A stretch of 15,573 nt of DNA, taken from Anaerolineae bacterium (GTDB taxonomy: Bacteria; Chloroflexota; Anaerolineae; JAAYZQ01). Positions 5,098 to 9,519 of the stretch are shown here, piece by piece; the first letter of the stretch is position 1; each line of letters starts with the position of its first letter. The position numbers and the translations under genes were made by a program. Location of the stretch: positions 1-15,573 of the forward strand of contig JAFGOG010000184.1 of NCBI GenBank assembly GCA_016926595.1, read 5' to 3'. The notes beneath the pieces are model-generated. The model was not told the DNA's origin and ran no database searches. It saw only the letters and a list, made by a program, of their open reading frames with translations.

Positions 5098-5436
5098 CTA
5101 TTTCTGGATGCCGCCCTCTGTCATGCTGCGGGCATCCAGGAGGCGATCGGCCTGGAAGGGATCGACCACAAACTGGCCATTCCAGCGGCCGTCGATCACC
5201 TCCTGTGCTGCCTGGACGATGGCCTGACCTCGCTGCCCGTCCAACAGGCCAAGCTCCACATGGACCAGGGCTGCCGCCTGCTTGATGACAGCCATACTCC
5301 ACACAAAAGCAGGATAGGGCCGCAGGCCGCTGACAGGAAAATTGCGCACGGCGCGCATTGTCTGCGCGCCGTACAAGGCATCTGCTGGCACCTTGACTGT
5401 GCCCAACGAATCCTCTTCGATCCGGGTATCGGTCAT
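5098..5436 (-). pseudogene. Truncated fumarase/aspartase-family protein, N-terminal fragment
   Basis: The 112-residue frame begins MTDTRIEEDSLGTVKVPADA and continues LYGAQTMRAVRNFPVSGL. This is the N-terminus of class II fumarases and aspartate ammonia-lyases (usually about 460-470 residues), tetramers that add or remove water or ammonia across fumarate. Similarity ends near residue 95 at GQFVVDPFQA, where the family continues into the GAGTS/NMN substrate loop. Instead a 17-residue unrelated tail ends at TAG. All later catalytic regions are missing, so it cannot be an active lyase alone. ATG at 5436 has GGAGG about 12 bases upstream; a GTG at 5463 is possible. The intact frame and ribosome site suggest either a recent truncation or an expressed small protein. 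It lies 42 bases after the ferritin-like gene. Confidence 0.75.
5104..5139. repeat. Inverted repeat at the end of the fumarase-like fragment
   Basis: CTGGATGCC at 5104-5112 and GGCATCCAG at 5131-5139 form a perfect 9-base inverted repeat with an 18-base loop. It coincides with the unrelated tail of the truncated lyase fragment. No T-run follows on the minus strand, so it is not a standard terminator. Confidence 0.5.
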
Positions 5437-5478
5437 GACTTTCACCTTTCCTCCGTTGCTCACGGCGAAAGGCGCGGC

Positions 5479-5985
5479 TTAGAACGGCGCGAACCCCATT
5501 TCCGTCTGAAAATAGCTCATCAGGCGATTGTATTCACCCTCCAGGAGCCTCAGGTGGTCTTGTTCCATGTCGGCCAGATCGCGGAACATCCGCCGGCCGT
5601 TGGGATTATCCGTTTGCGCCGCAGCGCGGGTGTAGAAATCGACGGCGTCCTTTTCGATCAGATAGGCCACACGCAGGGCGGACAGGTCTGACGTGTGAGC
5701 CACTACGTTCTGTTTCACGCGCTCCTGCGAAAAGATCGGAGCGCCCTGGTCCACGTCCAGAGCCAATCCCTTGTACTCGGCCCATTCACCGCTCTGTTCC
5801 AACATGGCCTTGGTATTGCGCAGCATCTCGAGGTGCATGATCTCATCGCGAGCCAACCGCTCGAATATCCTCCGCGCGTCGGGCTCGGTGCTGCGCTCGG
5901 CGAACTTTTGGTAAAAGTTGTGCCCGTCGATCTCGGTCTGAATGGCCATCTGTAACACAGCGATGGCCGCGTTTAGCTCACTCAT
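5479..5985 (-). CDS. Rubrerythrin/ferritin-like diiron protein with two half-ferritin units
   Basis: The 168-residue protein consists of two ferritin-like helical pairs. Unit one (about 10-65) has E18, Y25 and E48-x2-H51. Unit two (about 103-160) has E111, Y118 and E141-x2-H144. Together they supply the four glutamates and two histidines expected of a diiron four-helix bundle. This family includes rubrerythrin-type peroxide reductases and iron oxidases. The rubredoxin-like CxxC domain of true rubrerythrins is absent, so an external electron donor would be needed; the thioredoxin-fold fusion encoded just upstream is a candidate (inference). ATG at 5985 has GGAGGAA upstream and overlaps the preceding gene by eight bases (ATGAGTGA), which implies coupled translation. 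Confidence 0.85.
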   Translation of the reverse strand: MSELNAAIAVLQMAIQTEIDGHNFYQKFAERSTEPDARRIFERLARDEIMHLEMLRNTKAMLEQSGEWAEYKGLALDVDQGAPIFSQERVKQNVVAHTSDLSALRVAYLIEKDAVDFYTRAAAQTDNPNGRRMFRDLADMEQDHLRLLEGEYNRLMSYFQTEMGFAPF

Positions 5986-8329
5986 CTTTTTCCTCCAGCA
6001 CCACCTCTTCCTCGCCTGTGGCCCGCAGATCCAGCAGCCAGTTATCCACAACCCCGGCGTCGATCTTGGCCTGCACGCGACGGTACCCCTCAGCGCTCAG
6101 GCGCTGCCGAAGGAGGGTCTGGCCAACCTCGCTGCTCAAATCCAGGTCTGGCCAGCGGTTTTTGACCTCCTCCTCAGTGCTCCAGATGCAGTAGCGAAAG
6201 ACCCGCGCGCCATCCTTGAGAACGCGGAAAAAGTACTGCAACCGCTGTTGTGGTTCAGGTTTAAATCCTTCATCGATAGTATAGCCCTTGTACTCCCGGG
6301 CGCCATGCCCCATGCGCTCCTGGCCTACCATCGCTTCGGCCTGGGCCAGCAGCTCGTTGGGGTCGGCCGTAGGGCGGGCGCACAGAGTGCCCACACAGAC
6401 ATAGGCCGCCGGGGCAGGCTGAGCAGGATACCCCAGCCGGGCAAGCCGGTTGGCCTCCCACACCGGATCCACAGCCTGGATCGTCTTGTTGGGGGCATAG
6501 GCCCGCCTGGCAGCGCGGAGCAGCTCAGCCCGTTGTGGGTCCTCGTTCTCGCCAACCACCGTGATAATCAGAGGCCGCCGCAGATAGCGGTCCACCGCCA
6601 GGGCAAAGCGGGCGGCGTCGAGGCCGGCGTCGCCGTGAAAGGGAGCCAGCGTCTGTAGGGTCTGCTGAGCCGACTGGCGATACTCCTCGCGGCCGGTCAG
6701 ACGGTGGAGGCGCAGGTCGACCTCCGCCGCCAGTACGTTTTCACAGAACGGCTTGCCGCGGCGGCGCAGCCGGCCTACTGCCTCCGGCACCGCGATCGAA
6801 TCAAAGTAGCGTCCATCCTGGTCGCGCAAGGCGTTATGGACAAACCGCATGAGAGTCTCGGCCCGCTGCAAATAGACCTCGCGGCCAAAATGCTCATAGG
6901 CATCGAGCCAGGCCTGGGACATCCTTACCTGATCGGCCAACATGCCAGGTAAATGGGGCTGAGTGTCAAAGTAGTGGTGCATCCCCAGCCCTTGCTGGTA
7001 GCTCCTGAGCCAGACAAACTCCAGGGCGCGGATGGCCAGATCGGCGTAGCGCGGCTCGTTTAGCACGCTGCTGGCCTGCATGTAGGCCGAGGCGACGGCT
7101 GCGTTCCGCTCGGTATAGGCGATCTTGTCCACATAAGGTGCGGGGCGACCTGTCCGACCTTGGGCGTCGAGCCCGGGGCTGTAATAGTCCGGATCCGCCG
7201 CCTGGCTGCTGTAAAAGTAGCCCTGATCCCGGTCCCACAGCACAGTATCCAGGTACCGAAGGACGCTGCGGGCGGTGTCCAGGTAGGTCTGTTGGCCTGT
7301 GGCCTGGTAGGCGATCAGGTAGAGGGCCAATAGCTGGGCCTGGTCGCCTGCCATTTTTTCATAGTGAGGGGCGCTCCAGTCGGCCGCCGAAGCGTAGCGG
7401 AAAAATCCGCCGTCTATCGGGTCATGCAGCCCGCCGCTGGCCATGGCTGCCAACGACAGGTGGACCAGCTCGGCGAGCGCTTCGTTGCCGGTGCGGTGGG
7501 CCACGGCGAGGACGAACTCGAGTGCGTCGGCGTGATGAAACTTGGGCGCGCCGCCCAAGCCGCCATGCTCCCGGTCAAAGGCGGCCAGGACCGTCTGTAG
7601 GATCTGCTCCGGCAGTTTATGCAGATCCTCGACGGGCCAGCCCTCGGAGCGCAGCGGAGCGGGAGGGGAAGGGGTTAGAGCTCTGCCCGCTTCGGGGAGT
7701 TCGAGATCGACCAGCGGCTGCCCTGGCCGCAGGCCGACGATCGGGGCCTCTGCCGGCACCGCGTCGCCCTTGAATCGTGCTCCGATGCGGCGTGACGCGG
7801 CCAGCATCTGCTCAGCCGTCAGGTAATTGTGGCTCTCCAGCACCTCGCCGGCGGCGTTCAGGAAAGCGGCCGTCGGCCAGCCGCCCTGATTGTAGCGAGC
7901 ATCGACGTCAGGCCGCTTGTCAGCATCCACCATAATCGGGATCAAGTCGGCGTTGATGGCTTCTACTACCTGTGGATCGGCAAACGTGGTTCGCTCCATC
8001 AGGTGGCAAGGCTCACACCAGGGAGCGGTGATGTACAGCATCACCGGCAGATCCAGCTCATCGGCCAGGCGGAATGAATCATCCTCCCACTCGTACCACT
8101 TGATCGGCAGGCGCTCGCGGCCTAACTCCAGGTCAGGCTCAAAGATGCGGCGATATTCGGCCTCCAGCAGGTCGTGGTGCTGCCGCTCCTGCTCTCTCAA
8201 CATCTCAAACAGAGAGCGGGTAGCTGCGTCGCCGGCCGCCTCGGCCATGCGCGAGTAAAAATCGTGGGCGGACTGCTCACGCTGGATGGCCAGACGCCAT
8301 ACGTCTGGGATCTCGTTGAGCGGTTTCAT
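5978..8329 (-). CDS. Half-ferritin + DUF255 thioredoxin-fold + alpha/alpha-barrel fusion protein
   Basis: The 783-residue protein has an unusual order of parts. Residues 1-66 are one ferritin-like helical pair (E18, Y25, E48-x2-H51). Residues 75-190 are a thioredoxin fold of the DUF255/YyaL (SPATA20-like) family with WCEPC (C105, C108) and GGWPTAAF as the cis-proline loop. Residues 235-585 are the alpha/alpha barrel usual in this family (GGLGGAPKF, GGFFRYASAADW, PHYEKMAGDQA). Residues 585-665 include VCVGTLCARP. The last 110 residues (about 675-783) are a tail I do not recognise. YyaL-type proteins are thioredoxin-domain proteins of poorly defined function. The family's usual N-terminus (SPYLLQHA-type) appears replaced by the ferritin-like pair. 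No signal peptide is seen. ATG at 8329 has AAGGAAGGAG upstream. I see no convincing promoter in the 46 bases before it. Confidence 0.85.
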   Translation of the reverse strand: MKPLNEIPDVWRLAIQREQSAHDFYSRMAEAAGDAATRSLFEMLREQERQHHDLLEAEYRRIFEPDLELGRERLPIKWYEWEDDSFRLADELDLPVMLYITAPWCEPCHLMERTTFADPQVVEAINADLIPIMVDADKRPDVDARYNQGGWPTAAFLNAAGEVLESHNYLTAEQMLAASRRIGARFKGDAVPAEAPIVGLRPGQPLVDLELPEAGRALTPSPPAPLRSEGWPVEDLHKLPEQILQTVLAAFDREHGGLGGAPKFHHADALEFVLAVAHRTGNEALAELVHLSLAAMASGGLHDPIDGGFFRYASAADWSAPHYEKMAGDQAQLLALYLIAYQATGQQTYLDTARSVLRYLDTVLWDRDQGYFYSSQAADPDYYSPGLDAQGRTGRPAPYVDKIAYTERNAAVASAYMQASSVLNEPRYADLAIRALEFVWLRSYQQGLGMHHYFDTQPHLPGMLADQVRMSQAWLDAYEHFGREVYLQRAETLMRFVHNALRDQDGRYFDSIAVPEAVGRLRRRGKPFCENVLAAEVDLRLHRLTGREEYRQSAQQTLQTLAPFHGDAGLDAARFALAVDRYLRRPLIITVVGENEDPQRAELLRAARRAYAPNKTIQAVDPVWEANRLARLGYPAQPAPAAYVCVGTLCARPTADPNELLAQAEAMVGQERMGHGAREYKGYTIDEGFKPEPQQRLQYFFRVLKDGARVFRYCIWSTEEEVKNRWPDLDLSSEVGQTLLRQRLSAEGYRRVQAKIDAGVVDNWLLDLRATGEEEVVLEEKDE

Positions 8330-8375
8330 AGACAGCTCCTTCCTTCTACTTGTGGCAAACTGGGCCTGTTCCAAA

Positions 8376-8412
8376 AGCCCGCCTTCTGCAATGCTGACGC
8401 TAAAGGCGGGCT
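8376..8412 (-). terminator. Intrinsic terminator of the half-ferritin/regulator operon
   Basis: On the minus strand AGCCCGCCTT pairs with AAGGCGGGCT (10 perfect pairs, 17-base loop), followed by TTTT. It lies about 100 bases after the stop of the Crp/Fnr gene and before the fusion gene, so at least part of transcription should stop here. Confidence 0.7.
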
Positions 8413-8426
8413 AGGCATTTCTGTTC

Positions 8427-8483
8427 TGTCCGTTCTGAGCGGCGCTGGCGGTTCTTCGGTCGCTTTTCTCCCTCAGAATGACA
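8427..8483. repeat. Small inverted-repeat element (REP/MITE-like)
   Basis: The ends TGTCCGTTCTGAG (8427-8439) and CTCAGAATGACA (8472-8483) are imperfect inverted copies that bracket an insert containing GTTCTTCGGTCGC. From memory this resembles dispersed bacterial repeats of the type TTCTTCGCTCCGCTCAGAATGAC. It holds no coding frame of its own and lies between the regulator stop and the terminator. Confidence 0.5.
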
Positions 8484-8509
8484 CGTGTAGGGCGCCCCGA
8501 GGGAATAGG

Positions 8510-9169
8510 TTACAGCGCCCCCGCTTCCAGCTTTAGCCCGTCTACGTCGAGCAAAGTCAGCCTTCGCCGGCCCGAGTCTACCAGCCCCCGTCGCCTAAAC
8601 TCCTGCAAAGTCTTGCTGATCGTCTCGCGCCAGGTGCCCAACATGTCGGCCAGCTCCTGGTGGGTGATCTCGATGGTGTTATTCCGGCTGTCCGCTCGCA
8701 GCTCCAACAACAGGGCCGCCAGGCGAGAGGCGATGGTGCTATAGGCCATCTGCTCCAGGCGATTTTCCGCTTCCACCACCCGCTGACCCATTGCCTGCAT
8801 CAGGCCAAAGCCGAACAGTGGATTCGTGGAAGAGATCTCTCTCGCACGCTGCCCCGGCATCACCCACACAGAACCAGCCTCGAGGCCAACCGCGTAGGCG
8901 TTAGGCCCATGCCCACCCAGCAGCGATTCCTCGCCAAAGATCGATCCCGGTTCCAAGGTTGCGATCGCAAAGCGGCGCCCATCCGGCGTGGCGCGGTACA
9001 ACTGCACCCGCCCGCTGATGACCAGGAACAACGAGCTTGCCATCTCCCCGGCTTCATAGATCAGCTCGCCAGCCCGGAATGTACGGCATTCCAGCGACTC
9101 GCTCATCACCTTATTCTGCTGGACCAATTGGTCCAGGATCTTGGTCACACTTTTGTCTCTTGGCGCCAT
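8510..9169 (-). CDS. Crp/Fnr-family transcriptional regulator
   Basis: The 219-residue protein has a cyclic-nucleotide-binding beta-roll (about 25-115, with IYEAGEMASSLFLVISGRV and PGSIFGEESLLGG) and a dimerisation helix around 125-155. The C-terminal winged helix-turn-helix follows (about 165-205: ITHQELADMLGTWRETISKT). R181/E182 stand where Crp/Fnr proteins contact DNA. The only cysteine is C28, so an FNR iron-sulfur cluster is excluded. The cAMP-binding Arg-Ser/Thr-Ala motif is absent; GPNAYAV stands there. Its signal is therefore unknown. ATG at 9169 lies ten bases after the half-ferritin stop; the ribosome site is weak (AAGGA about 15 bases away), so coupling is likely. It probably controls the neighbouring ferritin-like genes (inference). 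Confidence 0.9.
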   Translation of the reverse strand: MAPRDKSVTKILDQLVQQNKVMSESLECRTFRAGELIYEAGEMASSLFLVISGRVQLYRATPDGRRFAIATLEPGSIFGEESLLGGHGPNAYAVGLEAGSVWVMPGQRAREISSTNPLFGFGLMQAMGQRVVEAENRLEQMAYSTIASRLAALLLELRADSRNNTIEITHQELADMLGTWRETISKTLQEFRRRGLVDSGRRRLTLLDVDGLKLEAGAL

Positions 9170-9179
9170 AAACGCAAGC

Positions 9180-9386
9180 CTAGTCCTTGGCCGCTCCCTT
9201 GAGCTTCTTTTCCAGCTTGGCGTACTCGCTTTCCAGGAAATCCGCGTGTACCGTTTCCTCGTCTCGCAGCCTGGCAAAGAACGTCTTCATCTCTGCATCT
9301 GGCGCCAGGTCCACGGCCAGTTGATACTTGGCTTTCGCCGCGTGCTCTTCCATCACCATGATCTTGATAAAGCTCAGCCAGTCCAT
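9180..9386 (-). CDS. 68-residue half-ferritin (two-helix ferritin-like protein)
   Basis: The product is a single ferritin-like helical pair: E14 and Y21 in the first helix, E44-x2-H47 (DEETVHADFL) in the second, then a charged end. The same E-x6-Y and E-x2-H spacing occurs in the downstream fusion and in the 168-residue protein. One copy supplies only half of a diiron site, so a dimer or higher ring is needed; encapsulated ferritins also work as two-helix units, but no encapsulin shell gene is visible here. ATG at 9386 has AGGAG seven bases upstream. It is the first gene of the operon with the Crp/Fnr regulator. It could serve in iron oxidation, peroxide reduction or as a subunit for a partner. 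Confidence 0.8.
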   Translation of the reverse strand: MDWLSFIKIMVMEEHAAKAKYQLAVDLAPDAEMKTFFARLRDEETVHADFLESEYAKLEKKLKGAAKD

Positions 9387-9493: not shown

Positions 9494-9519
9494 TCTGTAA
9501 GCTCTATCACATCCGTAAC

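Follow-up and report, generated by a model that had tools for sequence, protein, structure and literature searches.

What could a bacterium gain from four copies of half a ferritin, spread over three proteins and arranged around a transcriptional regulator? The question is raised by a contig of an Anaerolineae bacterium (JAFGOG010000184.1; 15,573 nucleotides, the whole of which is called the window here), where positions 5479-9386 of the minus strand encode, in gene order, a protein of 68 amino acids (aa), a regulator of the Crp family, a 783-aa protein and a 168-aa protein. All genes and domains of the window described below lie on this strand. Named relatives, too, point to a member of the Chloroflexota, probably of the Anaerolineae. 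The answer favored here, to which a probability of about 60% is assigned, is a small stress cluster of the ferritin superfamily in Anaerolineae-like Chloroflexota, whose diiron sites would detoxify O2 or peroxide together with ferrous iron beside oxygen-sensitive enzymes. Protection of such enzymes is suggested because about half of the genes related to the one for the 68-aa protein lie in gene clusters for carbon monoxide dehydrogenase/acetyl-CoA synthase (CODH/ACS) or beside genes for oxygen defense.

The half-site motif and the proteins that carry it

The four units, one in the 68-aa protein, one at the N-terminus of the 783-aa protein and two in the 168-aa protein, share the pattern E-x6-Y followed by E-x2-H, and the span of 34 residues from the first glutamate to the histidine is identical in all of them. 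The residues concerned are E14, Y21, E44 and H47 in the 68-aa protein, E18, Y25, E48 and H51 in the 783-aa protein, and E18/Y25/E48/H51 as well as E111/Y118/E141/H144 in the 168-aa protein. Shuffling of the 68-aa protein produces the motif by chance in 0.3% of cases, and shuffling of residues 1-68 of the 783-aa protein in 0.7%. It is also well conserved: all 80 relatives counted for the 68-aa protein have it (P0121-P0200; 83 were found, and the three weakest, P0201-P0203, were excluded from the count), as do 119 of the best 120 of 162 relatives of the 783-aa protein (in the exception, P0098, the histidine is shifted by one residue), and each of the top 120 among 412 proteins related to the 168-aa protein, including the copy in the window itself, has it twice. 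In R. rubrum EncFtn, the corresponding set of Glu32, Tyr39, Glu62 and His65 binds iron between two chains (excerpt of PMC5012862). The match to this ferroxidase center supports the proposal, made in a preliminary description of the locus, that each unit contributes half of a diiron site; its observation of one pattern in four units is likewise borne out by position, by rarity in shuffles and by conservation.

The 68-aa protein (9180..9386) is the representative in the window of what is called type A here, a kind of half-ferritin in which the four ligands are invariant in 18 of 18 proteins, with identity down to 43%, as well as in a 33-row alignment (A1). Its AlphaFold2 model is a clean helical hairpin with a predicted local distance difference test score (pLDDT) of 95.6, and the 50 Foldseek matches listed for this model are all EncB, EncC, R. 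rubrum EncFtn, NE0167 or the encapsulated ferritin of P. furiosus, in agreement with the half-site assignment. The best of these has E = 0.016 at a probability of 1.00, and none falls below 0.001 for this hairpin of 68 residues. In profile searches the protein matches EncB_fam at E = 3.2e-5, far under the curated cut-off; it reaches 15.8, 24.0 and 23.9 bits against cut-offs of 27, 125 and 90 for PF22277, TIGR04535 and NF058679, respectively. It looks related to EncFtn and would work in the same way, without being a filed member of these three families. With EncFtn, EncB, EncC and the short ferritin-like protein NE0167 (3k6c) it shares the helical hairpin, the Glu-x6-Tyr and Glu-x2-His elements and a half-site per chain, but it shows no targeting-like tail, and no encapsulin was found in the two closest genomes, G001 and G014. 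The type A genes also differ from those of EncFtn in their neighbors, which are a Crp-family regulator and a YyaL fusion, or CODH/ACS genes. Short proteins that resemble EncFtn but lack such a tail have already been reviewed as the s-FLP class (excerpt of PMC11202242).

The 783-aa protein (5978..8329) is a YyaL-type protein of thioredoxin and toroid domains, to which a half-ferritin is tethered through a flexible linker. Its N-terminus matches PF02915 at E = 2.1e-5, and the hairpin at residues 7-63 (8141..8311), referred to as type B, is well defined in a model with a mean pLDDT of 80.3, its helices covering residues 7-31 and 35-63; residues 65-74, which link it to the next domain, stay below a pLDDT of 50. 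The following thioredoxin-fold domain (approximately residues 76-190; 7760..8104) matches Thioredox_DsbH of the YyaL/DUF255 type with 83.5 bits against a cut-off of 27 and contains the sequence W104-C105-E106-P107-C108, of which CEPC is invariant in 53 aligned fusions. An alpha/alpha toroid of the epimerase/GH76-like fold (approximately residues 230-670; 6320..7642) and a beta-rich C-terminal domain (approximately residues 678-778; 5996..6298) complete the chain. The best fold match of the fusion, 7tkv, belongs to the YyaL/SSP411/DUF255 proteins, which have the CxxC thioredoxin fold and the toroid in common with it, while the N-terminal half-ferritin and the beta-rich domain are additions. The latter has no Pfam match at E<=1, and in more distant fusions the match stops near residue 670, short of this domain. 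At least six of the 298 genomes of the class of G001 hold the fusion; this is a lower bound, since the list of matches considered was truncated and no more than three candidates were scored per genome. Matches that begin at residues 26-61 did not count as fusions. For many genomes of the class, similarity to the fusion sets in only near residue 70, which implies that YyaL-type proteins manage without a similar hairpin.

Another single half-ferritin joined to a stress-type protein can be read from two sequences in which the unit stands at the C-terminus of a DJ-1/PfpI protein (L040:7901-8677, with PF01965 and PF02915; L041:3917-4717, by similarity). Both adjoin a two-unit ferritin-like protein, and a YyaL-type gene that shows no matching hairpin lies approximately 1.3 kb away.

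The 168-aa protein (5479..5985) matches PF02915 at E = 9.8e-18 (65.3 bits, cut-off 22.8), and its solved relatives TM1526 (1vjx) and 2fzf align with it over nearly the full length. Both of its halves carry the motif, as the preliminary description had it, but the protein is an ordinary two-unit bundle rather than a pair of novel half-units. A profile search gave no match to a rubredoxin domain, such as is present in the rubrerythrin of G009, and an identification as a classical rubrerythrin was therefore rejected.

Neighborhoods of the half-ferritin genes

Among the 298 genomes of the class, 25 match type A at E<=1e-3. The counts given here rest on 17 of these, with stand-alone type A genes matched over nearly the whole length; eight weaker and mostly partial matches (E from 7.6e-7 to 8.7e-4) were excluded. 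CODH/ACS clusters hold 8 of the 17 genes: in six genomes (G098, G237, G155, G118, G040 and G274; L076, L077, L078, L079, L080 and L081) type A lies between acsD and acsC, and in two (G272 and G032) beside CooS and an ACS subunit, several of the neighbors in these clusters having been named by NCBIfam. AcsC is encoded in 16 of the 17 type A genomes, as compared to 124 of 298 overall (Fisher p = 4.8e-6), and in all six genomes counted with the fusion. A different setting is found in G009, where a compact run (L070:2301-8138) comprises genes for a flavodiiron protein, a flavoprotein of the rubredoxin-reductase type, superoxide reductase, a two-unit ferritin-like protein and rubrerythrin, followed by type A, a 300-aa ferritin-like protein with a TVGSL-like tail, and encapsulin. 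In G023 and G059, type A has two-unit proteins and a rubredoxin-reductase-like gene as neighbors, the latter gene being partial in G023 and joined by a rubrerythrin in G059; in G003, only two-unit proteins accompany it. In G041, G072 and G002 it is followed after 9 bases by a gene for a 70-aa half-ferritin of the type B kind, and in two of the 17 genomes it occurs with the regulator and the fusion. A phylum-wide search found matches to type A at E<=1e-3 in 15 of 400 genomes, of which only G001 and G312 match strongly.

Both of the close genomes found keep the genes for the 68-aa half-ferritin, the regulator and the fusion in one neighborhood. G001 (L001) has them in this order, with an AcsE-like gene after the fusion; in G014 (L035), half-ferritin and regulator are followed by a two-unit protein, the fusion and an orthologue of the 168-aa protein, after which the contig breaks off in the first part of an AcsE-like gene. 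Only G014 of the two thus combines the 168-aa orthologue with the other three genes. The AcsE-like gene scores 20.9 bits against Pfam CdhD, under the cut-off of 24.8, and has matches at 1e-52 in the vicinity of the acs genes of G098 and G274; the AcsC gene of G001 is on a separate contig from the half-ferritin cluster. After the more distant fusions of G041, G072 and G002 come a two-unit protein and then, at a greater distance, orthologues of the 168-aa protein, the one in G041 being truncated by the end of the contig. G072 and G002 also have an encapsulin gene 3-4 kb upstream of the fusion and open reading frames (ORFs) for 2-oxoacid:acceptor oxidoreductase downstream (the alpha subunit is named for G072). 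An ORF that looks like a transketolase immediately precedes the fusion in G025.

Type A is found in five of six fusion genomes and in 12 of 292 others (Fisher p = 1.9e-6). Contig sharing, as inferred from equal sizes of the longest contigs between protein lists, points the same way: fusion and 168-aa proteins share longest contigs 20 times versus 0.7 expected, 68-aa and 168-aa proteins nine times versus 0.3 (the expectation being for contigs from 2000 bases upward; one of the nine is shorter), and fusion and 68-aa proteins seven times versus 0.2 (contigs of at least 4000 bases). The lists behind these counts contained the top 120 of 162 fusions and the 83 proteins found to be related to the 68-aa protein; for the 168-aa protein, they contained the top 120 of 412 relatives, minus the copy in the window. 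These numbers support a linkage of the three ferritin-like genes in metagenomes. The clustering of the 68-aa gene with fusion and regulator withstands the comparison of neighborhoods, because the linkage is kept in both close genomes and contig sharing agrees for the three ferritin-like genes.

As a side observation, the fusion at L055:12132-19904 is succeeded by a two-unit protein, genes for 2-oxoacid:acceptor oxidoreductase, a glutaredoxin-PDZ-like ORF (judged by reading) and three more two-unit ferritin-like genes.

Possible roles in oxidant defense or iron supply, and assembly

CODH/ACS ranks among the most oxygen-sensitive of known enzymes, and little is understood of the way in which anaerobes protect it. 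In the mechanism proposed here, the hairpins of the cluster would dimerize, or form EncFtn-like rings, to create diiron sites, and the two-unit protein would make such a site within one chain. By analogy with EncFtn and rubrerythrin-like proteins, these sites might use O2 or H2O2 to oxidize Fe(II), whereby oxidant and free iron would both be removed, while the thioredoxin domain of the fusion, envisaged as an electron donor in the preliminary description, could regenerate thiols or the iron site; the lineage of the 68-aa protein would in this way help to protect oxygen-sensitive Wood-Ljungdahl and ferredoxin enzymes. A more specific and clearly more tentative proposal is that Chloroflexota have recruited a free-standing half-ferritin family, whose genes lie between acsD and acsC, to be a dedicated oxygen or iron guard of Wood-Ljungdahl CODH/ACS, and that in one lineage this family works under a Crp-family regulator with a second half-ferritin, tethered to a thioredoxin-toroid protein, possibly in a heteromeric diiron site. 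Half-ferritins and YyaL proteins are already known kinds, but no description of a half-ferritin fused to YyaL, or encoded within acs clusters, was found in the open-access literature searched. A protein of approximately 61-68 aa with a diiron half-site, encoded inside acs clusters, would be an easily tested candidate guard. The cluster would moreover be an instance of half-ferritins that occur outside encapsulins and as fused modules, joined to YyaL here and to DJ-1/PfpI in relatives, and would bear on the origin of four-helix ferritins from hairpin halves.

Several observations weigh against the protective role. The window itself has no CODH/ACS gene in its ORF list, and G001 has no 168-aa orthologue beside its fusion. 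For 7 of the 17 type A genomes (G001, G014, G023, G041, G072, G002 and G003), no acsC, acsD, ACS, CooS or encapsulin gene was seen in the stretch read, and no rubrerythrin, flavodiiron or superoxide-reductase gene either; the neighbors are only ferritin-like, partial reductase, regulator, fusion or AcsE-like genes, and several of these stretches are short, because contigs end there. Furthermore, AcsC is present in 108 of the 281 genomes that lack a strong type A match; the pathway thus does not require type A. Three genomes have no type A gene between acsD and acsC (G137, L106; G010, L108; G101, L109), the AcsC of G137 belonging to the same close group; G257 was left out of this check, its contig ending at the place in question. 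Finally, contig sharing is an indirect kind of evidence for linkage.

Protection of oxygen-sensitive metal enzymes is nevertheless considered the likeliest role, and its chief rival is that the half-ferritins store or supply iron for the assembly of Ni-Fe-S and Fe-S enzymes, namely CODH/ACS and 2-oxoacid:ferredoxin oxidoreductase, instead of removing oxidants. Such a supply would fit the six type A genes inside the acs gene order itself, the 2-oxoacid:acceptor oxidoreductase in the fusion cluster of G072, the ORFs with the same beginning at the same place in G002, and a relative in G312, which precedes an ORF resembling a cysteine desulfurase (by reading). It is less easily reconciled with G009, where the gene lies amid dedicated O2 and superoxide defense genes, or with shell-free EncFtn rings, which take up iron at few sites only (excerpt of PMC5012862), and it is regarded as the less probable of the two. 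A role as encapsulin cargo, with the half-ferritins acting inside shells like known EncFtn, is suggested by the encapsulin gene of G009, which one other gene separates from type A, by those upstream of the fusion in G072 and G002, and by the presence of encapsulin in three of six fusion genomes (G041, G072 and G002). Since PF04454 was not found in the draft genomes of G001, G014 and G025, the first two of which are the closest relatives, and since the 68-aa protein has no visible targeting-like tail while neighboring ferritin-like proteins of 300-340 aa end in tails of the TVGSL type tabulated in PMC11202242 (seen as an excerpt), this role appears improbable, even though short ferritin-like proteins without a tail may still be encapsulated according to the same excerpt.

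How the units assemble is a related matter. The preliminary description envisaged mixed assemblies, and the tandem of type A and a stand-alone type B gene in G041, G072 and G002, like the proximity of type A to the type B-carrying fusion in the window, G001 and G014, would fit a diiron site formed by both types. If so, one might picture type A as the N-half and type B as the C-half of the two-unit protein, but a Rosetta-stone-type test gave no such sorting: the C-half profile yields the higher score for 13 of 18 units of type A and likewise for 121 of 123 of type B, and this correspondence was rejected. The Pfam rubrerythrin profile placed the half-units in mixed halves. Moreover, no separate type B gene was seen near the eight type A genes in CODH/ACS clusters, and EncFtn is a homo-oligomer (excerpt of PMC5012862). 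Mixed sites have thereby lost ground and seem rather unlikely, the tandem genes still pointing the other way. Even less credit is given to the idea that the fused hairpin is a metal-free oligomerization module for the YyaL protein; the many class genomes in which the fusion match begins only near residue 70 speak for it, whereas retention of the motif in 119 of the best 120 of 162 fusions speaks against it.

Regulator, transcription signals and an adjacent reading frame

The regulator (219 aa; 8510..9169) has the cyclic nucleotide-binding fold and the helix-turn-helix domain of the Crp family (PF00027 and PF13545). In O2 sensors of the FNR type, cysteines hold a 4Fe-4S cluster; the regulator has a single cysteine, and an FNR-type sensor was rejected for this reason. 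The gap between regulator and fusion contains a terminator-like hairpin stretch followed by UUUU (8355..8425, minus strand; -28.7 kcal/mol, z -2.66), so that the four genes may not form one transcript. The inducible redox or iron response that had been proposed from the presence of the regulator is weakened on both counts. A scan for promoter and terminator patterns gave counts near those of shuffles, and the hairpin was not among its output.

A Crp-site-like palindrome with one mismatch lies upstream of the 68-aa gene (9496..9511, no strand assigned), but at least one such site occurs in 47 of 200 shuffles of the window; being within chance, it was dropped as a candidate operator. No Crp site with up to three mismatches was found in the 300 bases upstream of the G001 gene, and two sites with three mismatches are present in the 90 bases upstream of the G014 gene.

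Directly downstream of the 168-aa gene, a 121-aa ORF (5098-5463, minus strand) matches the N-terminal part only of the lyase family PF00206 and is perhaps a decayed gene.

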